A stretch of 64,000 nucleotides of DNA from Natrinema salinisoli. GTDB lineage: Archaea; Halobacteriota; Halobacteria; Halobacteriales; Natrialbaceae. The stretch is from the NCBI RefSeq assembly GCF_020405205.1, contig NZ_CP084469.1, positions 4,092,001-4,156,000 of the forward strand. Reading direction: 5' to 3'. Below the pieces are notes generated by a model. The model saw only the letters and a program-made list of their open reading frames with translations. It did no database searches and was not told the DNA's origin. The position numbers were made by a program, and so were the translations under genes. Of the stretch, positions 6,764-37,079 are shown in pieces. Each line of letters opens with the position of its first letter. Position 1 is the first letter of the stretch.

Positions 6764-7525
6764 ATGAAACGACGAACCCTCATCGCAGGCGTCGGCGCCG
6801 CTGGTTTCGCTGGGCTATCGGGTTGTCTGGGTATGCTCGGGCTGGCCGAACACGAGTCGTCCCCCGCCGGCGTCGAAGCCGCCGCTCGCGAGGAGACGGG
6901 CTACGAGCAGACCGCTATCGAAGCGCTCCCGGTCGAGCGGGACGTCGGACCGACGAACGAGACGGTCACCGTCACCAATCACATGACCAAACACGAGAAG
7001 ACGATCGACATGGGGCCGCTCGGCAGCCGACGCGGCGCCATCTTCAACGTGTTGACGACGCCGCAGGTGAGCATCGTCGGCAAGGAGCTCAACCCCGTCG
7101 GAGAGATGTCGACGCAGGAACTCATGGATCTCGTCAGGAGCAACTACGACGAAATCAGCAACATATCCCACGAGGAGGACTCCGACGTTACGATCCTCGA
7201 GCAAACGACGACTCGCTCCATGTTTACCGCGGACGCCGAGTTCGACGGGCGGAGCGTCGACGTCGACATCCACATCACCGAGGCCGTCGAGGCCGACGAA
7301 GACTTGCTCGTGACCATCGGCGTCTATCCGCAGTACGCGAGAGATCAGGAGGAGCCGAACATCGAGACGGTCACGGAGGCGGTGACGACGGAGGTTGATG
7401 AGGACGCCTCGACCGGCGATTCCGGGTCCGACGACGGCGGAAACGAAAGTAGTGACAACGAAACCGACGGAAGCAGTGACAACGAAACCGACGACAACGA
7501 GAGTGACGACGGCGTCCTCGGCTGA
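6764..7525 (+). CDS. Haloarchaeal Tat lipoprotein (DUF6517-like)
   Basis: A 253-residue protein starting MKRRTLIAGVGAAGFAGLSGC: an RR signal with lipobox and acylated Cys near residue 21. A globular middle of about 170 residues follows with no catalytic signature I recognise; it resembles the haloarchaeal lipoprotein family DUF6517. The C-terminus is a low-complexity Asp/Ser/Asn/Glu tail with NETD repeats, encoded by an exact 19-base duplication (7451-7469 and 7475-7493); the NET triplets are potential N-glycosylation sequons. Probably anchored on the outer face of the membrane; function unknown. Confidence 0.75.
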   Translation: MKRRTLIAGVGAAGFAGLSGCLGMLGLAEHESSPAGVEAAAREETGYEQTAIEALPVERDVGPTNETVTVTNHMTKHEKTIDMGPLGSRRGAIFNVLTTPQVSIVGKELNPVGEMSTQELMDLVRSNYDEISNISHEEDSDVTILEQTTTRSMFTADAEFDGRSVDVDIHITEAVEADEDLLVTIGVYPQYARDQEEPNIETVTEAVTTEVDEDASTGDSGSDDGGNESSDNETDGSSDNETDDNESDDGVLG

Positions 7526-7612
7526 GGCCGACCGAATTCGCGGAGAGTCACTTCGTCGCTCGGATTCGAACAGTTTTCAACTCCGGACCGTCTCCGAACG
7601 CGGCCGCGAACG

Positions 7613-8755
7613 TTAGAGTCCGAGTTCGCGACCGATGACCAGGTGCTGGATTTCGCTCGTTCCCTCGCCGATCTCCATGAGCTTCGCGTCGCGATAGAAC
7701 CGCTGCGGCGCGAAGTCGGTCGTATACCCGTAGCCGCCCAGCACCTGCACGGCGTCTTCGGCGACCTCGCGGGCGGCTTCGCTGGCGTCGAGTTTCGCGA
7801 GGGCGGACTCTCGCGTGACGGGGTCGCCTCGGTCGTATTTCCGCGCAGCGTCGTGGGTGAGCAGTCGCGCCCGCTCGGTCTTTCGGTGCATGTCGACGAT
7901 CGTATCCCGGATCGCGTCGAACTCGCAAATCGGCTGCCCGAACTGTTCGCGTTCCGTACTGTACTGCTTCGCGTGCTCGTAGGCTCCCTGCGCGAGCCCC
8001 GTGGAGAGCGCGGCGATCGAGATGCGACCGCCGTCGAGCGTCTTCTTCGTCTGGTCCCAGCCGTCGCCCTCCGCGCCGAGCAGGCGGTCTTCCGGTAGGC
8101 GCACGTTCTCGAGTGCGATTTCACAGGTCGGCGAGGCGTTGAGCCCCATCTTGTCCCAGATCGTCGTCACCTCGAAGCCGTCGTCTTCGGCCGGGTCGAC
8201 GATGAACGTCGAGATACCGTCGTAGCCCGCCTCGGGGACGGTGACGGCCTTCACGAGTATCGAGCCGGCTTCGGAAGCGTTCGTGATGAACTGCTTGGTC
8301 CCGTTGAGAACCCACTCGTCGCCGTCTCGCTCCGCGGTGGTGTCCATATCGGAGGCGTCGGAGCCGCTGCTCGGTTCGGTCAGCGCCCAGCCGCCGAGGT
8401 ACTCGCCCTCCGCGAGGGGCCGGAGCCAGCGTTCTTTCTGGGCTTCGCTGCCGAACAGTTCGATCGGCTTCGACGCGAGCGAGGTGTGTGCCACGTAGGA
8501 GAGCCCGATCGCGCCGGAGACGCGGCCGAGTTCCTCGGCGACGAGCGCGTACATGAGGGTATCGCCGCCCAGGCCGCCGTACTCCTCGGTGATCGGGACG
8601 CCCATCATATCGAGATCCGCGAGCTGGTCGAAGATCTCCGCGGGGAAGCGGTGCTCGTCTTCGATTTCCTGCGCGATCGGTTCGATCTCGGTTTCGCAGA
8701 AGTCCCTGACGGTCTTTCGAATCATCCGGTGTTCGTCGGATAGCTCGAGGGGCAT
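7613..8755 (-). CDS. Acyl-CoA dehydrogenase
   Basis: A 380-residue FAD flavoprotein that introduces the alpha,beta double bond into acyl-CoA in fatty-acid or branched-chain amino-acid breakdown. It shows WALTEPSSGSDASDM (FAD-contacting ALTEP box), the C-terminal QVLGGYGYT box and EGTSEIQ, whose first Glu is the catalytic base in the short/medium-chain group. The ATG at 8753-8755 (MPLELSDEHRMI) is preferred over a TTG two codons upstream. No electron-transfer flavoprotein genes are adjacent, so the substrate is open. Confidence 0.9.
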   Translation of the reverse strand: MPLELSDEHRMIRKTVRDFCETEIEPIAQEIEDEHRFPAEIFDQLADLDMMGVPITEEYGGLGGDTLMYALVAEELGRVSGAIGLSYVAHTSLASKPIELFGSEAQKERWLRPLAEGEYLGGWALTEPSSGSDASDMDTTAERDGDEWVLNGTKQFITNASEAGSILVKAVTVPEAGYDGISTFIVDPAEDDGFEVTTIWDKMGLNASPTCEIALENVRLPEDRLLGAEGDGWDQTKKTLDGGRISIAALSTGLAQGAYEHAKQYSTEREQFGQPICEFDAIRDTIVDMHRKTERARLLTHDAARKYDRGDPVTRESALAKLDASEAAREVAEDAVQVLGGYGYTTDFAPQRFYRDAKLMEIGEGTSEIQHLVIGRELGL

Positions 8756-8824
8756 ACGCAATACTTGCCGAGGCGCGAAATAAACGCACCGGAGAACTGC
8801 ATCGATCGGAGGGTGGTCGCGTCG

Positions 8825-9961
8825 CTACCGGCCGGATCGGTCGTCGTCGCGGTCGGTGTCCGAGTCGTCCTCATCGCTCGAGTCCCAGTGATCGGGGCCG
8901 CCCCAGGAATCGGTCCCGTCGTCACCGTCCTCGCCGGCGGGGCGGTCGTCGGGTCGGTCGTCGTCGGGCTGGCCGTCGTTCGAGTCCCAGTCGTCGGATC
9001 CGCTGGACTCCGTCGTTGCGTCGCCGCGAACCCTCGCTCGCTGGTCGGGAACGAGGTCGAGTTCCGCGTCCGTATCACCGAGCACCAACAGCGCGTAGTA
9101 GCGTAGATACACGACAAAAGGGACCTGGATCAGTGAAGAGAGCAGGAGAACGAACGGAATGGCGAGGAAAATGATGAAGATCCCGATGATTGGAATGAAA
9201 GCGATCAAAATGAGCGGGATGGCGAGAATGAAGAACCCGATGAAAAAGATGACTCCGAGCGCGATGCCGAATCCTAACTGTACCACCCAGACCAGCAGGA
9301 GGTAGACGAGATACTCCTTCCAGTTGGCGGTCAGCGTCCGCCGGAACCGCTTCCAGGCGGCGACGACTCCCGCGTCCTCTTGGAGCATGGTCGGCGCGAC
9401 GAAGACGGTCGTGAACCGATTGACGACGGCGTAGACGAGATATATCGGGATCGCGAGAAGTGCTAGTGCCCCGATGAACGCCGCCGAATCGGTCTCCATC
9501 GTCGTATACAAGGCGTACGCGGGGACGCCGAACACGAGGAGCGCGATCAGGCCCAGCGCGAGTCGGAATCCGAAGAGTCGAACCCCGAGCTCGAGATTAC
9601 GCTTCGTGTACCGACGGACGTGAACCTCGCCGGAGCGCAGCGACTCGAGCAGCGCGAACTCGAGGAGCGAGCCACTGAAGGCGAACACGAGGTAGATCGT
9701 CAGGCCGATGGCCGCGATGACGATGAGTGCCGGCAGCATTTCGCCGAAACCGACTGCCGCTCCGGGGTCAGTACCGGTACCGGGTGTCGGCTCGCCGCCG
9801 AATTCGCCGCCACCGCCGCCGGGGGTCGGCGGTCCTCCGGACACGACGCCGCCCACGAAAAAGACGATGATTGCCAGTTTGATCCACGTCCAGAAACTGG
9901 CCCCCGCCAGGAACCCACGAGTCACGTCGATCGCGTCACTCAGGTCTTTTGTCGCATACAT
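8825..9961 (-). CDS. Multi-pass membrane protein (DUF7544-like) with acidic tail
   Basis: A 378-residue protein with about six to seven membrane segments: one near residue 25-45 before a Gly/Pro-rich loop, several between 75 and 190, and a very hydrophobic pair rich in Ile/Phe near 220-285. The last 70 residues are almost only Asp, Ser, Gly, Arg and Trp, a cytoplasmic or exposed disordered tail (DDWDS-like repeats). It matches the uncharacterised haloarchaeal family DUF7544. Function unknown. It is monocistronic with its own promoter. Confidence 0.75.
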   Translation of the reverse strand: MYATKDLSDAIDVTRGFLAGASFWTWIKLAIIVFFVGGVVSGGPPTPGGGGGEFGGEPTPGTGTDPGAAVGFGEMLPALIVIAAIGLTIYLVFAFSGSLLEFALLESLRSGEVHVRRYTKRNLELGVRLFGFRLALGLIALLVFGVPAYALYTTMETDSAAFIGALALLAIPIYLVYAVVNRFTTVFVAPTMLQEDAGVVAAWKRFRRTLTANWKEYLVYLLLVWVVQLGFGIALGVIFFIGFFILAIPLILIAFIPIIGIFIIFLAIPFVLLLSSLIQVPFVVYLRYYALLVLGDTDAELDLVPDQRARVRGDATTESSGSDDWDSNDGQPDDDRPDDRPAGEDGDDGTDSWGGPDHWDSSDEDDSDTDRDDDRSGR

Positions 9962-9985
9962 GTTTTCGGATAGAAATCGTTCCCT

Positions 9986-9997
9986 GTTAATATTATC
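9986..9997 (-). promoter_or_regulatory. TATA-box region for the DUF7544-like membrane gene
   Basis: On the minus strand GATAATATTAAC lies 25-36 bases before the ATG at 9961, consistent with a near-leaderless transcript. Confidence 0.5.
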
Positions 9998-10142
9998 TAT
10001 TTACGTATCAGTCAGTTTTAGATACGGTAGTATTTGCTAGTACTAACGGAACGAATCGGTGGATACGACGCTCGCCGGACGTGATCTCTCTCCCCGGTAA
10101 CACTTCGAGGAGCATTTAACGCCAACCGGCGATACGTTCGGT

Positions 10143-10952
10143 ATGGACATCCGCCGGCTCGCACGAGGATCCATCGAGTGGAGCCGCATCGAGCGTGTCG
10201 TCCGCACGCTGGCGGATCGCTACGACCGCGAGGAAGTCCGCGTCGAGTTCCTCGAGGCGGACAACTGGCTCTCGACGCCCTGTGTCATCGACGACGAGTG
10301 GTTCGTCAAGATCGTCTCCCGACAGAACGCCCTGGTTCACGCCGTGTTGACGACCGGCCGGAACGTCGGCGCGTTCTCCTCGGGGACCGAGGGCTTTTTC
10401 GATCGGTTCGATACCCCCCGCGAGATGGTCGAACACGAGTACGAGGCGACCGAGCGAATGCAGGAGATCGGCATCAACGCCCCGCGGCCGATCGACGCCT
10501 TCGAGGTCAACGGGCTCGGCGTCCTCGTCCTCGAGTACCTGCCGGAGTTCCGGTCGCTCGGCGACGTCTCCGACGACGTCGTGACGGAGCGAGCGCCGGA
10601 ACTCTTCTCGATGCTCGCAACCCTTCACGACCACGGGCTCGCTCACGGCGATCTGCGGGCGGAGAACATCCTGCTCTGTGACGGCGAGTTCTATTTCATC
10701 GACGCGACCAGCGTTCACGACGACCGAGTCGACGAGACGACGGCCTACGACCTGGCCTGCGCGCTGGCCGTCCTCGAGCCCCGCATCGGGCCGCGGGAGG
10801 CCGTCAACGCGGCTGCAACGGCCTACGATCCCGACGCGTTGCTCTCCGCGCGGGAGTTTCTCGACTTCGTCCGGCTCCGCCCCGATCACGAGTTCGATTC
10901 GACGACGTTGCGCAGCGAACTCGAGAAGGCGGCCGATTTGGGCGGAGGGTAG
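10143..10952 (+). CDS. RIO-type protein kinase-like protein
   Basis: A 269-residue protein with an N-terminal winged-helix-like part and a compact kinase fold. Candidate ATP Lys in DDEWFVKIVSR (about 56), Glu in EHEYEAT (about 98), catalytic loop AHGDLRAENILL with Asp170 and Asn175, and metal Asp in FIDATS (about 187), the RIO/Bud32-style replacement for DFG. RIO-like kinases act in ribosome maturation or as small regulatory kinases. It is shorter than canonical Rio1 and Rio2, so it is probably a haloarchaeal RIO paralogue; target unknown. A long A/T-rich intergenic region precedes it. Confidence 0.75.
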   Translation: MDIRRLARGSIEWSRIERVVRTLADRYDREEVRVEFLEADNWLSTPCVIDDEWFVKIVSRQNALVHAVLTTGRNVGAFSSGTEGFFDRFDTPREMVEHEYEATERMQEIGINAPRPIDAFEVNGLGVLVLEYLPEFRSLGDVSDDVVTERAPELFSMLATLHDHGLAHGDLRAENILLCDGEFYFIDATSVHDDRVDETTAYDLACALAVLEPRIGPREAVNAAATAYDPDALLSAREFLDFVRLRPDHEFDSTTLRSELEKAADLGGG

Positions 10953-11001
10953 CCGGAATCGGACGGCGATCGGTCACCGTCCGACAGGCCAGTGCAGGCA
11001 C

Positions 11002-11038
11002 CATGCGCTTTCGCGAGGGAGCGCTACGCTCGCGCATG
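11002..11038. repeat. Imperfect palindrome over the start of the PRC-barrel gene
   Basis: CATGCGC at 11002-11008 pairs with GCGCATG at 11032-11038, and inside them CGCGAG (11012-11017) pairs with CTCGCG (11029-11034). The right arm contains the ATG at 11036. It could be a regulatory hairpin or a decayed palindromic repeat. Confidence 0.4.
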
Positions 11039-11557
11039 TGCCCACCGTTCACCGACGACGACGTCGGCAAGCGGGTCGAAACCGCGAGCGGCGACCTCCT
11101 CGGGACCATCAAACTGACCGAGCCGCACACGGCGTACGTCGACGTGAACGACGACACGAGGGACACGATACGGGCGATCCTCGAGTGGGAGACCGACGAG
11201 GATATCGTCCCGATGGACGCGAGCGCCGTGAGCGAGCGTACCGAGACCGCAATCCGGCTCGAGGACGACCGTTCGTCGCCGGACGAACCGGCCGAGGCGG
11301 GTACCGATTCCGTCATCGAGCGAACCGAGAGCACCGAAGATCGGGACGACAGCGACGAGCAGCGGACCATGGGTCCACCGTCGGGGACGCCCGACGAACC
11401 GGCCGCGGATGCGGAGGGGCGGACGGGAGAGGGACTCGAGCCGTCGGAGGAAGAGATGACCGAGTCAGGTGGGGAGCGCCACCCGGATACCGAGCAGGCC
11501 CCGCCGGAGGGCGACCGGACCGTGACGAAAGACCGCGGTGAGGAGGAGGATCGATAG
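11036..11557 (+). CDS. PRC-barrel-like domain protein with long acidic tail
   Basis: A 173-residue protein. Residues 1-70 (MCPPFTDDDVGKRVETASG...) look like a PRC-barrel beta domain, a small fold used in RNA maturation and membrane-associated proteins; the GKRVETASGDLLGTI segment is typical. The remaining 100 residues are Glu/Asp/Pro/Ser/Thr rich and probably disordered. ATG 11036 is chosen because upstream residues (from ATG 11003) come from a palindrome and are basic, unlike relatives. Function unknown. Confidence 0.65.
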   Translation: MCPPFTDDDVGKRVETASGDLLGTIKLTEPHTAYVDVNDDTRDTIRAILEWETDEDIVPMDASAVSERTETAIRLEDDRSSPDEPAEAGTDSVIERTESTEDRDDSDEQRTMGPPSGTPDEPAADAEGRTGEGLEPSEEEMTESGGERHPDTEQAPPEGDRTVTKDRGEEEDR

Positions 11558-11711
11558 GACAACGCGGCTCACCTCCGCATTCGTACATACGTCGACCGGT
11601 CAGCGGTGTCGATGAACGAATCGGCTGACACAGTGTCACAAACTCGGTAATTCACTCGAAATCTGTAAACGACCAGTATGATTTTTCACAGTTCCCGTCG
11701 TCCGTCCGAGT

Positions 11712-13247
11712 ATGAGTCAGCAAATCACCGAACAGGTACACGGCCACTACATCGGCGGCGAGTGGACCGACGCTGCGGAAGAGACGTTCGAGAGCGAGAA
11801 CCCCGCGACGGGTAAAACGCTGGCGACCTTCCAGCGCGGGACGGAGGCCGACGTCGACGCGGCCCTCGAGGCGGCGGAGGACGCCTTCGACGAGTGGCGC
11901 TCCCTGTCGTACATCGACCGCGCGGAGTACCTCTGGGACATCTATCACGAGTTGCGGGAGCGACACGAGGAACTCGGAGAGATCGTCTCGAAGGAGTGCG
12001 GCAAGGAGATTTCGGAGGGGAAAGCCGACGTCACCGAGGCCTGGCACATGGTCGAGTGGGCGGCGGGCAACGCCCGTCACCCCCACGGAGACCTGGTCCC
12101 CTCCGAGGTCGCGGGCAAAGACGCGTACATGCGGCGTAAACCGCGGGGCGTCGTCGGCTGCATCACGCCCTGGAACTTCCCGGTCGCGATTCCCTTTTGG
12201 CACATGGCGATCGCCCTCGTCGAGGGGAACACGGTCGTCTGGAAGCCGGCGGAACAGACGCCGTGGTGCGGCCAGATCATCGCCGAGATGTTCGAGGACG
12301 CCGGCATCCCGGACGGCGTCTTCAACATGGTTCAGGGCTTCGGCGACGCCGGCGCGGCGCTCTCGGACGACGGACGCGTCGACACCGTCCTCTTTACCGG
12401 CTCCGCGGAGGTTGGACACGAAATCGCGAGCAAGGTCGGCGGCGAACCCGGCAAGCTCGCAGCCTGCGAGATGGGCGGCAAAAACGGGATCGTCATCACC
12501 GAGGAAGCCGACCTGGACCTCGCCGTCCACTCGGCGGTGATGTCGAGCTTCAAGACGACCGGCCAGCGCTGCGTCTCGAGCGAGCGCCTGATCGTCCACG
12601 AGGACGTCTACGACGAGTTCAAAGAGCGCTTCGTCGATATCGCCGAGGACATCGCCGTCGGCGATCCGCTCGAGGAGGACACGTTCATGGGGCCGGCGAT
12701 CGAGGCCGAGCACGTCGAGAAGATCCGCCAGCACAACGACCTCGCCCGCGAGGAGGGTGCAAACGTCCTCGTCGATCGGTTCGAACTCGAGGACAGCGAG
12801 ATCCCCGACGACCACGACGACGGCCACTGGGTCGGCCCGTTCGTCTACGAGATCGACTACGAGTCCGACCTGCGCTGTCTGAACGAGGAGTGTTTCGGCC
12901 CCCACGTCGCCCTGATCGAATACGAGGGCGATATCGAGGACGCGGTCGACATTCACAACGATACGCCGTACGGACTCGCCGGGGCGATCATCTCCGAAGA
13001 CTACCGCCAGATCAATTACTTCCGCGACCGCGCCGACCTCGGACTCGCGTACGGGAACCTGCCGTGTATCGGCGCGGAGGTCCAGCTCCCCTTCGGCGGC
13101 GTCAAGAAGTCCGGTAACGGCTACCCCAGCGCGCGCGAGGCCATCGAAGCAGTCACCGAACGCACCGCCTGGACGCTGAACAACTCGAAAGAGATCGAGA
13201 TGGCACAGGGGCTGTCGGCGGATATCAAGACCTCGAGCGAGGACTGA
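11712..13247 (+). CDS. Aldehyde dehydrogenase family protein
   Basis: A 511-residue NAD(P)-linked aldehyde dehydrogenase: TPWNFP at about 152-157, Glu in CEMGGKNG (about 253), catalytic Cys in TTGQRCVSSER (about 287), and FGPHV near the C-terminal third. The group around CEMGGKNG and GQRCVSSERLIV includes semialdehyde dehydrogenases acting on amino-acid or sugar-acid products, but the substrate cannot be read from sequence. It is about 20 residues longer than average because of a loop near 355-375 rich in Asp/His. Own promoter likely in the A/T-rich stretch just upstream. Confidence 0.9.
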   Translation: MSQQITEQVHGHYIGGEWTDAAEETFESENPATGKTLATFQRGTEADVDAALEAAEDAFDEWRSLSYIDRAEYLWDIYHELRERHEELGEIVSKECGKEISEGKADVTEAWHMVEWAAGNARHPHGDLVPSEVAGKDAYMRRKPRGVVGCITPWNFPVAIPFWHMAIALVEGNTVVWKPAEQTPWCGQIIAEMFEDAGIPDGVFNMVQGFGDAGAALSDDGRVDTVLFTGSAEVGHEIASKVGGEPGKLAACEMGGKNGIVITEEADLDLAVHSAVMSSFKTTGQRCVSSERLIVHEDVYDEFKERFVDIAEDIAVGDPLEEDTFMGPAIEAEHVEKIRQHNDLAREEGANVLVDRFELEDSEIPDDHDDGHWVGPFVYEIDYESDLRCLNEECFGPHVALIEYEGDIEDAVDIHNDTPYGLAGAIISEDYRQINYFRDRADLGLAYGNLPCIGAEVQLPFGGVKKSGNGYPSAREAIEAVTERTAWTLNNSKEIEMAQGLSADIKTSSED

Positions 13248-31085: not shown

Positions 31086-32048
31086 TCAGTCCTCGCTCGA
31101 GCCGACGGGCGGGCCGTCGAACGCCGGTAGTTTCGCTTCGATCTCCTCGCGCTCGTCCTCGAGCCACTCGGGAAGGGCGAGCCGCTCACCCAGTTCGTCG
31201 AGCGCCTCGTCTTCCGTGAATCCGGGCCCGGTCGTCGCCATCTCGAAGAGGATTCCGCCGGGTTCGCGGGTGTAGATCGACTGGAAGTACTTCCGGTCGA
31301 TGACCTCCGAGGGGGACAGTCCCGCCTCGGCGTAGGCCGCTCGCCACTGTTCCTGTTCCTCGACGCTCTCGGCGACGAACGCGACGTGATGGACCGTTCC
31401 GACGCCCATTCGCCCGCGCCCGGCGTCGGTTTCGACCAGATCGACGATCGAGCCGGGACCACCGGTCGCGCTCCGGTAGCGACGCCGGCCGTCGATCCCG
31501 CCCTCGCGCTCGTACCCGAGCACGTCGGTCAGAATCGTCTCGGTGGGACCGAACCCGTCGACGGCCAGCGTCACGTTGTAGAACCCGCGCAGCTGGTGTT
31601 CGGTCGGAACCGGCCCGCCCTCCCACGGCGTGGCGTCGAATTCGGCGTCGTCGGCCGCGACGAGCTCGAGTTCGATCCCGTCCGGATCCGCGAATCGGAG
31701 GACCGTCTCGTCGAATCGGGCTTCCGACTCGACGTCGACTCCCTCGGACTCGAGGCGGTCGCGCCAGTAGTCGACCGACTCCGGCGGAATCGCGTAGGCG
31801 GTCGTCTGCGTCTGGCCGGCACCGAATCGGCCCTCCCGCCCCTGGTCCGTCCACGGGAAGAAGGTGATGTTCGTGCCGGGAGAGCCCTCCCCGTCGCCGA
31901 AGTAGAAGTGATAGGTGCCCGTGTCGTCGTGGTTGACCGTTTTCTTCACGAATCGGAGTCCGAGCGTGCCGACGTAGAAGTCGGCGTTCGCCTGCGGGTC
32001 GCCGGCGATCGCGGTGACGTGATGGAGCCCGGGCGTGTGCAGTGACAT
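31086..32048 (-). CDS. VOC family ring-cleaving dioxygenase-like protein
   Basis: A 320-residue protein with two glyoxalase-like halves. The first begins with TPGLHHVTAIAGDPQANADFYVGTLGLRFVKKTVN (metal His in GLHHVT), the second with GFYNVTLAVDG and HHVAFVAESVEEQEQW; a metal Glu lies in ILFEMATT. Proteins of this type are annotated as extradiol ring-cleaving dioxygenases (PcpA/LinE-like) or glyoxalases. No aromatic catabolism genes surround it. Start ATG 32046-32048. Confidence 0.83.
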   Translation of the reverse strand: MSLHTPGLHHVTAIAGDPQANADFYVGTLGLRFVKKTVNHDDTGTYHFYFGDGEGSPGTNITFFPWTDQGREGRFGAGQTQTTAYAIPPESVDYWRDRLESEGVDVESEARFDETVLRFADPDGIELELVAADDAEFDATPWEGGPVPTEHQLRGFYNVTLAVDGFGPTETILTDVLGYEREGGIDGRRRYRSATGGPGSIVDLVETDAGRGRMGVGTVHHVAFVAESVEEQEQWRAAYAEAGLSPSEVIDRKYFQSIYTREPGGILFEMATTGPGFTEDEALDELGERLALPEWLEDEREEIEAKLPAFDGPPVGSSED

Positions 32049-32375
32049 AGCTGTTCTAGGGAGGCACCGCTTGAATCGTTTGCTCGCGTTCGCGTCACCG
32101 GGGGACGCGCGGGTTACCACGGTAGTGGTGTCGCCATCGCCCCGAGGGCTCCGAGTCCGCTTCGCCGTCCGCCGCGACGCTGACGACGTCAGTATCCAGA
32201 TCACTGAACCGGACCGACCACCTCACCAGCGAGAACACCAACACCCTCGTCGAACGCGTCGTCCGGGTCCTCGAGGAATCGGGCAGGGACATCGCGACGC
32301 CGGTCCCAGCGACCGGAAACGCAGCGTCCGAGAAGGCTCGAGCTCGGGCCGACCGTCGTTCCGGAGAGCAACTGG
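32049..32375. other. Intergenic stretch with possible coding remnant
   Basis: Between the VOC gene and the fructosyltransferase promoter. No gene with start and promoter is seen. A plus-strand frame ending in a TAG near 32380 encodes a helical acidic segment (LTSENTNTLVERVVRVLEE and onward) that looks gene-like in composition but lacks a start and a match I recognise; it may be the tail of a decayed gene. Confidence 0.35.
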
Positions 32376-32383
32376 TATAGTTA
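32376..32383 (+). promoter_or_regulatory. TATA box for the GH68 gene
   Basis: TATAGTTA lies 21-28 bases before the ATG at 32404, implying a leaderless transcript. Confidence 0.5.
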
Positions 32384-32403
32384 CTCAATTCGGAGTGAAC
32401 GTC

Positions 32404-33786
32404 ATGCGTCGAAGTGAATCAGTCTCGGTGACGGGTTTCGGCACCCGATCGGGATGGAGCCGAATACAGGCCGAACGTATCGAACGGACGGCGGCGACGA
32501 CTGCCCCCATCATCTACCCGCCGTCGGTCGATCCGGCACCGGACGTCCACGTCTGGGACACGTGGTTTCTCCGCAACCGCGACGGTTCGATCGCCGAGAT
32601 CGACGGCTGGCGGGTCGTCTTCTCGCTGACGGCCCCCGCCGACCGCCTGCCCGGGAAGCGACACGACGTCGCCACGATCCGGTACTTTTACTCTCGAGAC
32701 GGGAAGCGATGGCACGACGGCGGGCCGGTTTTCGAGGCGGGGAACCCCCTCGGATCTCGGCAGTGGGCCGGCTCGGCACTGTACGACGGCGCGGGCGAGG
32801 CGGGCGACGGCTCCCGGTCCGGCGGCGAGATCTATCTGTTCTACACCGCCGCCGGCCACCGCGGCGAGTCGGAGCTTTCCTACCGGCAGCGTATCGCTGC
32901 GGCCTCCGGCGGCCGGGTTCGCGTCACCGACGACGAGTTCGGGATCGCCGGCCCCTTCGACCACGAGATCCTGTTGACGCCCGACGGCGACCGCTACGAA
33001 ACCGAAGCGCAGTCCCGCGGTCCGATCTACACCTTCCGGGACCCCTGGTTCTTCGAGGACCCCGAGACCGGACGGACGCACCTCCTCTTCGAAGCGAACA
33101 CCCCCGTTCGCGACCGAGCGGATCTCGAGGACGACGACCCGTCGAGTCTCGAGTTCAACGGGTCGATCGGTCTCGCGACCTCGCCCACCGGCGATCCGAC
33201 CGACTGGGAGTTCGAACGCCCGCTCGTCGACGCCGTCCGCGTCAACCAGGAGCTCGAGCGCCCGCACGTGATCTACCGCGACGGCCGCTATCACCTGTTC
33301 TTCTCGAGCCATCGGCACACGTTCGCGCCGGGACTGGACGGCCCCGACGGGCTCTACGGATTCGTCGCCGATTCCCTCCAGGGCGAGTACCGGCCGCTCA
33401 ACGATTCGGGGCTCGTTCTCACGAACCCCGAGAGCGCGCCTTACCAGGCGTATTCGTGGCTCGCCTACCCCCACGACGGGGAGATCCTCGTCTCGAGTTT
33501 CTTCAACTACTACGACCTCGGGTCGTTGCACATCGACGACGTCGGATCACTTCCCGCCGAGGAACAGTTCAGCCGGTTCGGCGGGACGCTCGCGCCGACG
33601 GTTCGGCTCGCGCTCGAGGGCGATCGCACCCGCGTGAGGGGCACGCTCGACCACTGGCAGCTTCCGGCGGGTGACGACGCGTTGCCGCCGCTGTTGACCG
33701 ATTTAGTCGACGCGACGGACGAACAGGAGGACGGGACGGAGGGCTACGATACCGGCGCGGACTCGCCGGCGGCGTCCGCGGAGTAA
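32404..33786 (+). CDS. GH68 fructosyltransferase (levansucrase/inulosucrase type)
   Basis: A 460-residue five-bladed beta-propeller enzyme that splits sucrose and transfers fructose to make levan, inulin or water (invertase). Motifs: HVWDTWFLRNRD with nucleophile Asp52, TFRDPWFFEDP with stabiliser Asp213, and NQELERPHVIYRDGRYHLFF with the acid/base Glu. GKRHDVATIRYFYSRDGKRWHDGG is the sucrose-box context. There is no Sec or Tat signal although the enzyme is normally secreted, so either it works intracellularly or leaves by an unknown route. Convergent with the GH32 hydrolase 23 bases away: a make-and-use fructan pair. Confidence 0.88.
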   Translation: MRRSESVSVTGFGTRSGWSRIQAERIERTAATTAPIIYPPSVDPAPDVHVWDTWFLRNRDGSIAEIDGWRVVFSLTAPADRLPGKRHDVATIRYFYSRDGKRWHDGGPVFEAGNPLGSRQWAGSALYDGAGEAGDGSRSGGEIYLFYTAAGHRGESELSYRQRIAAASGGRVRVTDDEFGIAGPFDHEILLTPDGDRYETEAQSRGPIYTFRDPWFFEDPETGRTHLLFEANTPVRDRADLEDDDPSSLEFNGSIGLATSPTGDPTDWEFERPLVDAVRVNQELERPHVIYRDGRYHLFFSSHRHTFAPGLDGPDGLYGFVADSLQGEYRPLNDSGLVLTNPESAPYQAYSWLAYPHDGEILVSSFFNYYDLGSLHIDDVGSLPAEEQFSRFGGTLAPTVRLALEGDRTRVRGTLDHWQLPAGDDALPPLLTDLVDATDEQEDGTEGYDTGADSPAASAE

Positions 33787-33809
33787 CCGTCCCGATACGT
33801 GGCCGCTCG

Positions 33810-36008
33810 TTACTCCCAGGCCGATCCCATCTCCCAGCACGACCACTCGACGCGTGCGGCTCCCTCGTGTGCCGCCAGCGACGCGCCGGTCGCGTCCTCC
33901 CGAGTCGGGTAGACGCGACCGGTCAGACACCGCCGCTCGTTCGCGAAGAGTTCTATCGCGGAGCCGTCGAGGAAAACGCGCAACGAGAGCGGCCCCGGTT
34001 CGTCGATCGGCATCGACAGCTCCTCACTTGCCGCGTCGGGGTCGAGACTCGAGTCGGTTCGGTCGATCGCGACCGAGTCGCCGTCGTAGCGGACCGTCGT
34101 CCGCTCCTCGCCGTCCGGCGTCTCGAGCAGCCGCAGTTCGACGGCGTCGGCGTCGGCGAGGTCGAGTTCCAGGTCGAGTTCGAGCGCCCTCCCGTCGGCG
34201 ATCGAGACGGCGTCGGGTCCCTCGAGCGCGACTGTTTCGGTGCCGAGGCGGTCGGCCCGTCGGTCGACGAGTTCGTCGGCCGGCCGCTGGCGGAGCGTTC
34301 CGTCCTCGGCGAGGGTGAGTTCCCGCGGCACGGAGAGCGACCCCGACCAGCCCGCGTCCCACTGGGCCTCGGCCGTCCGCGTTTCGGGGAGCCACCCCCA
34401 CGTGAGGGTCCGCCCGTCGGAGAGGTCCATGGACTGGGGCGCGTAGAAGTCGCCGTAGTCGAGGATCCCGGTCGCGTCCGACTCGAACGAGCCCGTCTCG
34501 AGGTCGAGCTCTCCGAGGAAGTAGAGGACGGTATCGTAGTTGGAGACGTGCAAGAGACGCTTCTCGCCCAGGTCGAGCAGTTCGGGACACTCCCAGACGT
34601 CGCCGGCCCCCTCCCAGTCACCCACGAGCAGCGAGCCGACGTACTCCCACTCCGTCAGCTCGTCGGCGACGTAGAGTAAGGCCGTTCCACCGACGTCCTG
34701 GACGCCGGAGCCGATGACGTGGTACCAGCGATCGTCCTCGGACCAGATGCAGTGGTCCCTGAACTCGGCCTCCCAGTGCTCCGTCTCGAGGATCGGCGGA
34801 TCGACCGGAGCGCTTTCGATGACCGGGTTTTCGACGTGTTTCGTCCACGTTCGGAGCTCCTCGTCGCCCGCGGTCGCGAGACAGGGGAGCTGTCGCCGGC
34901 CGCGGCCGCCCGTATACAACAGCGTCGGCGTACCGTCGTCGACGACGGTACACCCCGACCAGCAGCCGCTGCGATCGGGACCGTTGGGCGAGGGCGTCAA
35001 CGCGACGGGTTCGTCGCGCCAGTGGACGAGATCGTCGCTCACGGCGTGGCCCCAGTGGATCGCGTGGTGGTAGGGGCCGCCGGGATTGTACTGGTAGAAG
35101 ACGTGGTACCGGCCGTTCCACTCGACGAGCCCGTTCGGGTCGTTGAGCCAGTTCGCGGGCGGGCTGATGTGATAGCGCGGCCGGTGTGGGTCGCTCGAGA
35201 GGGCCTCGCGATGCGCGGCGAGTTCGTCGGCGGACTTCGGTCGGCCGGTTAGCAGGTCGTCACTCGAGCCCGGACGTGAATCCGGGTTCGTGGTCGCGTT
35301 CGTCCCCGTTTCGCTGCCGGAACTCGCGAGATAACCGAGGGCGTTTTCGACGAGCCGCGTCGTGGTCTCGGTGAACTCGTCGGTCTCGTCCGCGTCCGGA
35401 GAACCGTCGAACGAGAGTGCAACACCGGCGCCGAGTACGGTTCCGTCGCCGATGGCCCACGAGAGGAGCGACGCCTCGTCGGGAACGTCGGCATCGTCGA
35501 CGACGGTCGAACCGAGGACGTCCGCACGCTCGGGTAACAGTTCCTGATACCGTGCGAACGGTGCCGGGCGCGACGGACCGTGAGTGAGCAGCCGGCGACC
35601 GTCGAGTCCGTCGAACAGCGGATGGGAGGCGTAGATGGATTTCCGAAGGTAGCCGCCGGACCCCGGTGGCTCGTCGACGCCGGTGTGCTCCGGTGGAACC
35701 TGATCGATCCCCCATGCCGCGACCGCAGCGAGCGCATGAACGCTCAGTAACAATCCGCCGCCGTCGCGGACGAACGGTTCGATCGATTCCCTACAATCGG
35801 CGACCCGCTCCGTGATCGCAAGCCGTTCGTTGCGATGCCACCAGCAGACGTCGTAGTCGTCCAGCTCGACGTCACCCGTTCGAACCGCCGCCATCGAAAT
35901 CAGGTCGACGGTGCCGACGTCGGCCGTCCGCGCCCAGTCGTAGGCCGTCCGCTGCCTCGGCGAGCACTGCTCGAGGTAGAGACATGCGATCCGCGGTGCG
36001 TCGCTCAT
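33810..36008 (-). CDS. GH32 fructosidase with N-terminal glutamine-amidotransferase-like domain
   Basis: A 732-residue protein in two parts. Residues about 5-230 look like a class-I amidotransferase/ThuA-like flavodoxin-type domain (DDYDVCWWHRNE, VRDGGGLLLSVHALAAVAAWG), without a clear catalytic Cys-His pair. From about 277 it is a GH32 hydrolase: WLNDPNG with nucleophile Asp290, FRDHCIW at 416-422 in place of the usual FRDP, and VWECPEL with acid/base Glu473; a C-terminal beta-sandwich (SLRVFLDGSAIELFANE) follows. GH32 cleaves terminal fructose from sucrose or fructans. No signal peptide. Start ATG 36008, with TATA-like AGTAAAAAC about 25 bases upstream. Confidence 0.85.
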   Translation of the reverse strand: MSDAPRIACLYLEQCSPRQRTAYDWARTADVGTVDLISMAAVRTGDVELDDYDVCWWHRNERLAITERVADCRESIEPFVRDGGGLLLSVHALAAVAAWGIDQVPPEHTGVDEPPGSGGYLRKSIYASHPLFDGLDGRRLLTHGPSRPAPFARYQELLPERADVLGSTVVDDADVPDEASLLSWAIGDGTVLGAGVALSFDGSPDADETDEFTETTTRLVENALGYLASSGSETGTNATTNPDSRPGSSDDLLTGRPKSADELAAHREALSSDPHRPRYHISPPANWLNDPNGLVEWNGRYHVFYQYNPGGPYHHAIHWGHAVSDDLVHWRDEPVALTPSPNGPDRSGCWSGCTVVDDGTPTLLYTGGRGRRQLPCLATAGDEELRTWTKHVENPVIESAPVDPPILETEHWEAEFRDHCIWSEDDRWYHVIGSGVQDVGGTALLYVADELTEWEYVGSLLVGDWEGAGDVWECPELLDLGEKRLLHVSNYDTVLYFLGELDLETGSFESDATGILDYGDFYAPQSMDLSDGRTLTWGWLPETRTAEAQWDAGWSGSLSVPRELTLAEDGTLRQRPADELVDRRADRLGTETVALEGPDAVSIADGRALELDLELDLADADAVELRLLETPDGEERTTVRYDGDSVAIDRTDSSLDPDAASEELSMPIDEPGPLSLRVFLDGSAIELFANERRCLTGRVYPTREDATGASLAAHEGAARVEWSCWEMGSAWE

Positions 36009-36031
36009 TTCCTCATATTTCTTGTGTTGCG

Positions 36032-36040
36032 AGTAAAAAC
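36032..36040 (-). promoter_or_regulatory. TATA-like box for the GH32 gene
   Basis: A GTTTTTACT-type stretch on the minus strand 24-32 bases before the ATG at 36008. Confidence 0.45.
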
Positions 36041-36120
36041 TCTCCCGGTGCGAGGCGGCGGAGTCGCCGACATCACCGAAACTGGCTCGATGAACTCGTT
36101 GAAACCGCCTTCGCCGGGTC

Positions 36121-36435
36121 TCCGTCACGGCCGAGTCGGACGAGCGATACCGCGGCGGACCCAAAGGATTAGCGCCTGTCCCCGGCTGCGAACGCGGCGA
36201 GACGATCCGACCCGAGGACGTGGCTCCCGTGCTCGCGAGCGAGCGAGGCGGGTTGAAAGGCGTTCCCGACGGCGCGACCGTCGTCCCGCTGCTCAACTAG
36301 GTCGACGACGCCGCCCGACGGGCCGTCGCTGAAGAGATCGCGACGGCGCTTCTCGAGCGAGCGCCGGCCGTGAGGCGCGTCGTGCTGGCGCGGATGGTCG
36401 CCGACGAACCGATGGTCGACGTGCTCGAATCCTAG
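36121..36435 (+). pseudogene. Truncated, nonsense-mutated yqeC (selenium/molybdenum hydroxylase accessory) remnant
   Basis: Read on the plus strand, the frame with first bases at 36157 gives PKGLAPVPGCERGETIRPED, then VLASERGGLKGVPDGATVVPLLN, an in-frame TAG at 36298-36300, then VDDAARRAVAEEIATALLE, ARMVADEPMVDVLES and a natural stop at 36433. This is the C-terminal half of a YqeC-type protein, whose genes usually sit next to MobA/MocA-like genes. An AAG or ATG to TAG change would explain the premature stop. The 5' half is missing and the DNA there gives way to the GH32 promoter, so the gene is dead. Its stop overlaps that of the convergent MobA-like gene. Confidence 0.72.
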
Positions 36436-37079
36436 CTGGATCGCTCCCCCTCGAGCCGCTCGGTCGCGTCCTCGAACTCCTCGCGGGTGTTGACGTTCTC
36501 GAAGGTCTCGAGCGCGGCGTGGTCGCGGATTTCGTCCTCGTCGACGACGACGTAGTCGAGCTCGAACAGCGGCTCGACGACTCGCCGCTCGTCTCGCTCG
36601 AGGGCGCGTTCGCAGGCCTCGATCATCGGTTCGGTACGGTAGACAGCCTGAGTCGTCTGGAACCACTGATCGTCGAGCCGCGGGACCGCGGCCTCGTGGC
36701 CCGCCGCTCGGTCGAAGAGGTGCTCGACGAGGGCGGGATCGACGAACGGCATGTCGCAGGCGACGACGAACGCGTACTCCCCGGCGGCCGCTCGGAACCC
36801 GGTCATGATCCCTGCCATCGGCCCGCGGTCAGGAACCGGATCGACTGCGAAGGACGTGGTCGGTCCGCCTTCGAGCGCGTCTCGGATCGCCGGAACCTGC
36901 TCCTCCCGGCAGTTGACGACGATCTCGTCGACGACTGGCTCGATCCGGTCGACAACGCGACGAATCATGGGCGTCCCGGCGAGGTCGGCGACGGCCTTGT
37001 CCTCCGCGCCGAAGCGGGTCGAGTGGCCGCCCGCGAGGACCACGCCCGTACGCATCCCTCCGCCGGTTTCGTGGGACAT
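36432..37079 (-). CDS. mobA: MobA/MocA-like molybdenum-cofactor nucleotidyltransferase
   Basis: A 215-residue protein with the MobA loop TGVVLAGGHSTRFGAEDKAV (LAGGxSxRFGxDK), DPVPDRGPMAGIMTGF and CDMPFVDP for the metal Asp. MobA guanylylates molybdopterin; related MocA makes cytosine dinucleotide. A formate dehydrogenase 0.8 kb away needs such a cofactor, and a decayed yqeC lies on the other side. ATG 37079 is used; ATG 37055 (MRTGVV) is the alternative and equally likely. Confidence 0.85.
   Translation of the reverse strand: MSHETGGGMRTGVVLAGGHSTRFGAEDKAVADLAGTPMIRRVVDRIEPVVDEIVVNCREEQVPAIRDALEGGPTTSFAVDPVPDRGPMAGIMTGFRAAAGEYAFVVACDMPFVDPALVEHLFDRAAGHEAAVPRLDDQWFQTTQAVYRTEPMIEACERALERDERRVVEPLFELDYVVVDEDEIRDHAALETFENVNTREEFEDATERLEGERSS

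Follow-up and report, generated by a model that had tools for sequence, protein, structure and literature searches.

A tail-to-tail gene pair in a 64,000-nucleotide stretch of the Natrinema salinisoli genome (the window; G000:C1:4092001-4156000, within a 4.7 Mb haloarchaeal genome), encoding one glycoside hydrolase of family 68 (GH68) and one of family 32 (GH32), is a class-wide haloarchaeal module that this genome acquired by insertion. Our best explanation, in which our confidence is evenly balanced, is that the laterally inserted module combines an inulin-type GH68 with a GH32 carrying a fructan-binding domain, and that the GH32 most likely, and the GH68 by a slight margin, act in the cytosol in a sucrose/fructose cycle. 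In such a copy of a conserved sucrose/fructan module, the GH68 would cleave sucrose, free glucose, and add fructose to a beta-2,1 (inulin-type) chain, while the GH32 would take fructose off the same chain, which its N-terminal domain, of ThuA fold and of the family of DUF4960 and the levan surface glycan-binding protein (SGBP), would hold ahead of the catalytic propeller. Sharing one compartment, synthesis and hydrolysis could then operate as a sucrose-splitting, fructose-buffering cycle. Both enzyme families have been described before, and so have inulosucrases of archaea that derive from bacteria; as far as our literature search shows, the tail-to-tail pair, the levan-SGBP-type fusion, the split of motifs between the twin-arginine (Tat) and leaderless types of GH68, and the insertion scar in this genome are new.

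The family assignments and the spacing reported in an earlier note made from the sequence held up fully. The stops of the two genes lie 23 bases apart, and the GH68 matched PF02435 (E 2.8e-78, 264.2 bits; cut-off 27), whereas the GH32 matched PF00251 (E 3.8e-77, 260.3 bits; cut-off 22.1) and PF08244 (E 5.2e-22, 79 bits; cut-off 21.9). These are the sole PF02435 and the sole PF00251 members of the genome (Table 1), and a terminator scan of the stretch between them found none. The predicted catalytic triad of the GH68 consists of D52 (VWDTW), D213 (FRDPW), and E285 (ELERPH), with the roles of the WD, RDP, and ERP motifs taken in part from passages of PMC8066391. That of the GH32 consists of D290 (NWLNDPNG), D418 (EFRDH), and E473 (WECPE), all invariant in 44 aligned relatives. 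The propeller, the sandwich, and all three catalytic residues are those of the beta-fructosidase/ScrB family (7vco, 1uyp), but the haloarchaeal enzymes that carry the N-terminal domain (N-type GH32s) differ in that domain, in the replacement of the usual FRDP by FRDH in the second catalytic motif (104/104 N-type GH32s across the fetched loci), and in that the window GH32 scores below the NCBIfam equivalog cut-offs for ScrB (278.8 against 356.4) and BfrA (224.4 against 900). The families and triads agree with the proposal that one enzyme makes fructan and the other removes fructose. The earlier note had missed both the DUF4960 domain and the existence of a Tat-type GH68 clade.

Comparison of homologues supports the assigned start codons and the presence of leaderless mRNAs, because the AT fraction rises to a sharp maximum about 27 bases upstream of the ATG, as is typical of leaderless haloarchaeal promoters. 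Among homologues starting with ATG, this maximum reached 0.87-0.94 at -28 to -26 before GH68 (108/113) and 0.84-0.95 at -29 to -26 before N-type GH32 (96/104), against roughly 0.2-0.6 in most places elsewhere upstream. The TATA-like boxes suggested previously are therefore corroborated by the relatives. The suggestion that neither enzyme has an export signal also survived: when every start within 80 codons was considered, alternative ones included, neither protein showed a Tat motif with a hydrophobic stretch behind it. In 57 of 110 homologous GH68 frames, at most 25 open codons precede the aligned start, so that longer starts are impossible in those frames. A Tat leader was likewise absent from all 104 N-type GH32s, where a single RR motif within the first 45 residues had no leader behind it, and Tat motifs or leaders were present in several GH32s without the N-terminal domain.

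Our quick tree of 111 haloarchaeal GH68 proteins (2 short fragments of 113 excluded) separated two fully supported clades, one of 12 rows and one of 99, although long branches meet in places. The small clade is marked by a twin-arginine leader in 12/12 rows and by the motif SHxFT in 11/12, whereas the large one has no Tat leader and carries SHxHT in 96 of 101 non-Tat entries, a count that includes short fragments. One haloarchaeal GH68 type is thus Tat-exported, and the other, lacking a leader peptide and hereafter called leaderless, is the one paired tail to tail with N-type GH32. The window GH68 belongs to the leaderless clade; its neighbor in the tree, that of locus L170, of the same family, is 72.5% identical. 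It matched the PDB entry 7bj4 with a phmmer E of 1.4e-180. The source organism of 7bj4, 7bj5, and 7bjc is, we assume, Halalkalicoccus jeotgali. These structures and HmcIsc of Halomicrobium sp. IBSBa represent leaderless GH68s of the same clade type with the HXHT motif (PMC8066391, in the passages available), but, unlike the HmcIsc/7bj4 type, the window enzyme contains no cysteine. The HXHT motif is given as the mark of archaeal inulosucrases (PMC8066391, section 3.2), and the window GH68 has HRHT at residues 303-306 together with the acceptor-groove aspartate D378, equivalent to HmcIsc D365 at a constant offset of 13. Because the HRHT motif matches the published inulosucrase motif, inulin appears a more likely product than levan, which had been named in the earlier note. 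The GH32 partner, the tail-to-tail linkage, and the Tat clade are not treated in the available passages of the inulosucrase papers. A linked levansucrase and GH32 have been described in Zymomonas mobilis (PMC8066391, in part). The arrangement there resembles the haloarchaeal pair in linkage, but it is a same-strand operon rather than a tail-to-tail pair. We know of no DUF4960 domain in that operon.

The pair proved to be widespread. Among 292 Halobacteria genomes, PF00251 occurred in 112 (37/77 genera), PF02435 in 107 (35/77 genera), and both together in 102, a co-occurrence count made without the seven weakest PF00251 rows (E from 1.8e-4 to 9.5e-4), most of which were GH68 frames, and without repeated fragments of one and the same GH68 gene, so that 110 rather than 112 genomes were scored as GH32-bearing. 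The two genes were convergent within 6 kb in 84 of the two-family genomes and on separate contigs in 7. A GH68 facing an N-type GH32 tail to tail was seen in 80 of the 139 fetched regions; the stop-to-stop gap ranged from -16 to 97 bases in 60 of them and from 138 to 3006 bases in the other 20. Haloarcula vallismortis (locus L202) is one culturable carrier of the pair. Protein distances of GH68 and GH32 were strongly correlated over 84 loci (r = 0.80, against a permuted maximum of 0.09), a value that includes host kinship; the two genes therefore largely travel together, with the shared ancestry of their hosts contributing as well. Conserved neighbors were considered as proof of a pathway and rejected, as ABC (ATP-binding cassette), TrmB, PfkB, and GH13 genes stand near only a minority of pairs. 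Some loci depart from the usual form. At L188 (G263, 7304-12511), the pair has decayed: the GH68 is spread over two broken frames, and the catalytic part of the GH32 is separated from its N-domain. At L118 (G132, 7141-9428), two overlapping frames beside an intact GH68 encode the N-domain and the catalytic part of the GH32 separately, reflecting either a frameshift or a sequencing error. L139 and L151 (G180 and G191) hold frames about 1420 aa long that combine a Tat motif with two GH32 domains and are clustered with further GH32 and GH68 genes.

The site of action can be assigned with more confidence for the GH32 than for the GH68. Archaeal fructan synthesis is thought to be extracellular, and a signal-less, class-wide pair beside a Tat clade makes the site of turnover directly testable. 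Growth on levan or inulin has been reported for several haloarchaeal isolates (PMC9726719, in part). The earlier alternatives, an intracellular cycle or secretion by an unknown route, fare differently for the two proteins, with the GH32 probably cytosolic and the evidence for the GH68 mixed. For the GH32, a cytosolic site is the most likely one, because N-type enzymes have no leader, several GH32s without the domain have Tat leaders, and at locus L133 an N-type GH32 is flanked by a TrmB-ketohexokinase fusion and by an importer comprising an ABC ATPase, a binding protein, and two permeases. The fusion at L133 (4925-7159) joins a TrmB regulator to a prokaryotic ketohexokinase (PF01978, PF11495, PF25270). 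For the GH68, the balance tips slightly toward the cytosol, in view of its missing leader and the separate Tat clade available as a comparison. At least one cysteine was present in 98 of 99 leaderless GH68 rows and none in 11 of 12 Tat rows. This contrast does not serve as a main argument because it is in effect one comparison of two clades, the window enzyme is exceptional, and a co-varying cysteine pair may form a disulphide. Cysteine content as a general location test was rejected, since 37 Tat-type and 875 cytosolic-like proteins of the fetched regions overlapped too much.

Several observations weigh against a cytosolic GH68 and cycle. The window GH68, having no cysteine, resembles the 11/12 Tat rows and not the 98/99 leaderless ones, and the cysteines near residues 242 and 279, whose possible disulphide would be a mark of export, occur together in 63 of the 99 leaderless GH68s, singly in 19, and not at all in 17. 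An inulin-type fructan was purified from the sucrose-supplemented medium of Halomicrobium sp. IBSBa, whose GH68 was predicted to carry a signal by PRED-TAT but not by SignalP (PMC8066391, in part). No PF25270 ketohexokinase was found in this genome, and a sugar ABC ATPase of the tested type was absent from 60 of the 88 loci with both genes. An alternative with an appreciable chance, though short of even, is that the GH68 is exported without a signal and makes inulin outside, while short chains are imported and then cut in the cytosol by the leaderless GH32. Signal-independent secretion is known for the levansucrases of Zymomonas and other Gram-negatives. Inulin in the Halomicrobium culture medium and the co-varying cysteine pair would fit such split compartments, as would the sugar ABC ATPase in 28 of the 88 two-gene regions and the 10 solute-binding proteins of PF01547 in this genome. 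However, the other GH68 clade uses Tat throughout, so that an unknown export route would be needed for the leaderless clade only. Furthermore, most leaderless GH68s have cysteines of the reduced type, missing from the exported clade, and no importer gene adjoins the window pair. The cytosolic cycle can also be drawn more fully, as an intracellular inulin cycle in which the two transcripts overlap at their convergent 3' ends and thereby hold each other in check, and whose module moves between lineages as a unit; this extended form is tentative and, in our view, rather doubtful.

Residues 1 to approximately 232 of the GH32 protein, close to a third of its length, make up a separate N-terminal domain, which begins at residue 5 of the leaderless protein. 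It matched PF16324 (DUF4960) with an E of 3.9e-8 (33.7 bits; cut-off 29.2), and a DUF4960 match at E 0.01 was obtained for 36 of 44 aligned copies. When a profile of these 44 copies was searched against the PDB, the top match was the levan-binding protein of the Bacteroides levan utilisome (8a9y_T/8aa2_T; E 8.7e-14 for 8a9y_T). The AlphaFold model of the domain (mean predicted local confidence, pLDDT, 92.5) gave the same first match, 8aa2_G, in Foldseek (E 4.6e-15) and in VIA-align (Z 24.9 over 221 residues, root-mean-square deviation 2.7), followed in VIA-align by the ThuA-like 1t0b (Z 18.7) and glutamine amidotransferases (GATases; near 16). By Pfam, profile, and fold, the domain belongs to the same family as the C-terminal levan-binding domain of SGBP-lev (Bt1761 of Bacteroides thetaiotaomicron) and the DUF4960 domain Lev-Lev5, and it has the WWH motif in common with SGBP-lev. 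SGBP-lev stands by itself as a lipoprotein of the cell surface and contains two immunoglobulin-like domains, whereas the haloarchaeal domain is fused ahead of GH32 with no export signal. The fusion was present in 105 of 126 haloarchaeal GH32 frames, and among the best 80 GH32 loci of the genome collection it occurred in 28/28 haloarchaeal and 0/52 bacterial cases; among the nearest GH32s, it is therefore haloarchaeal. A search of open-licence papers, which is no proof of absence, returned DUF4960 and GH32 together only in PMC10076258, whose available passages report the combination in 5/103 Pfam sequences and do not name archaea.

The most likely role of the domain, judged from family and modeled fold, is that of a built-in non-catalytic binding module that would hold the fructan chain. 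Strong levan binding and weak inulin binding have been shown for a DUF4960 domain (PMC10076258, in part), and Bt1761 binds levan via W297 and W359 (PMC7618045, in part). Two points count against an inulin-holding role: SGBP-lev, the best match of the domain, has hardly any affinity for inulin (PMC7618045, in part), and no tryptophan follows the aligned part of the domain where the levan-stacking W297 would be expected. The alignment with Bt1761 stops just short of W297, with a numbering offset of 23 estimated and W359 not placeable. Five copies, including those beside Tat-type GH68s, have a longer loop in the W297 region, and four of the five carry a tryptophan there; ligand preference may therefore differ between types. 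An alternative that we regard as unlikely is that the domain is not a carbohydrate-binding module but is structural or mediates oligomerization. The GATase-like middle domain of GH42 beta-galactosidases plays such a role. GH42 domains were among the fold matches, no counterparts of the tryptophans with which SGBP-lev stacks on levan are evident, and the domain is packed in a full-length GH32 model whose overall confidence is high (predicted template-modeling score, pTM, 0.90). Nevertheless, the levan SGBP heads both the sequence-profile and the fold searches, clearly ahead of the next family, and W57, H58, and W184 show no variation among 44 diverse copies. Through the fused DUF4960, which is a candidate salt-tolerant fructan-binding module, the fructan hydrolases of archaea are linked to a levan-binding protein of Bacteroides from the gut.

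Horizontal acquisition, previously offered as a possibility, is borne out for this genome by the remnants on both sides of the pair, which are intact genes in relatives, and by the rarity of the leaderless GH68 within the genus (1 of 29 genomes). GH68 occurred in 2 of the 29, the second (G301) being of the Tat, SHEFT type. The upstream remnant belongs to a gene that is presumably BKACE (beta-keto acid cleavage enzyme). The downstream one is the 3' part of yqeC, with a stop and joined directly to the insert, and yqeC is intact or nearly so at the locus in G298, G297, G293, G028, and G301 (TIGR03172, E 6.6e-55 for G298). In 9 of the 10 relatives with a fetched locus, the flanks aligned up to approximately 32118-32123 and again from approximately 36179-36450, and the fetched stretch of the tenth, G118, holds the mobA side only. 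Flank alignments and remnants bracket the pair closely, so that the insert comprises the pair and little else. At its ends, the longest shared word was 10 bases, inverted and likely due to chance, and no direct repeats were found. Base composition, proposed as a check against the neighbors, was uninformative and was rejected as a transfer test: the GC content and the GC content at third codon positions of the pair do not stand out, the latter being 0.855 and 0.843 against 0.73-0.89 in four neighbors. Of the two points that together would speak against acquisition, wide occurrence is true of the pair, whereas vertical inheritance is contradicted for this genome by the scars. A history in which the genus inherited the pair from its ancestor and the other members lost it is very improbable. 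The age and wide spread of the pair in the class and a GH68 tree that partly groups families (16 changes, compared with 49.5 on average after shuffling) are in its favor, but it is at odds with both the broken yqeC, which relatives keep intact at the site, and the rarity of leaderless GH68 in the genus.

Table 1. Coordinates of the gene pair, its domains and promoter elements, and the insertion site within the window
Feature	Position	Strand	Remarks
GH68 gene (leaderless clade)	32404..33786	+	460 aa, PF02435
GH32 gene	33810..36008	-	732 aa, PF00251 + PF08244
GH32 five-bladed propeller	34281..35171	-	PF00251, residues 280-576
GH32 C-terminal sandwich	33840..34217	-	PF08244, residues 598-723
GH32 N-terminal DUF4960 / levan-SGBP-like domain	35313..36008	-	ThuA/GATase-like fold, ~residues 1-232
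TATA-like box of GH68	32374..32384	+	AT-rich, ~-28
TATA-like box (TTTTTACT) of GH32	36032..36039	-	AT-rich, -31 to -24
Inserted pair	32302..36178		Approximate ends; nothing corresponding at this locus in relatives from the genus
Remnant of gene intact in G302, G028, G304	32209..32301	+	93 bases; frame reads DHLTSENTNTLVERVVRVLEESGRDIATP
yqeC C-terminal remnant (selenium cofactor biosynthesis)	36179..36435	+	In-frame TAG; TIGR03172 in relative G298
Flanking mobA-like gene	36432..37079	-	Conserved in 29/29 genus genomes
Flanking glyoxalase-fold gene	31086..32048	-	Beside mobA/yqeC in relatives; named by eye, weak NCBIfam match

The surroundings of the insert yielded two further observations. Other, different inserts lie between mobA and the glyoxalase-fold gene at L287, L289, and L291, in further members of the genus, giving the site the appearance of an insertion hot spot. 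In addition, yqeC was lost here beside a retained mobA and a formate-dehydrogenase-like gene, and the handling of molybdenum or selenium cofactors may accordingly differ in this strain.

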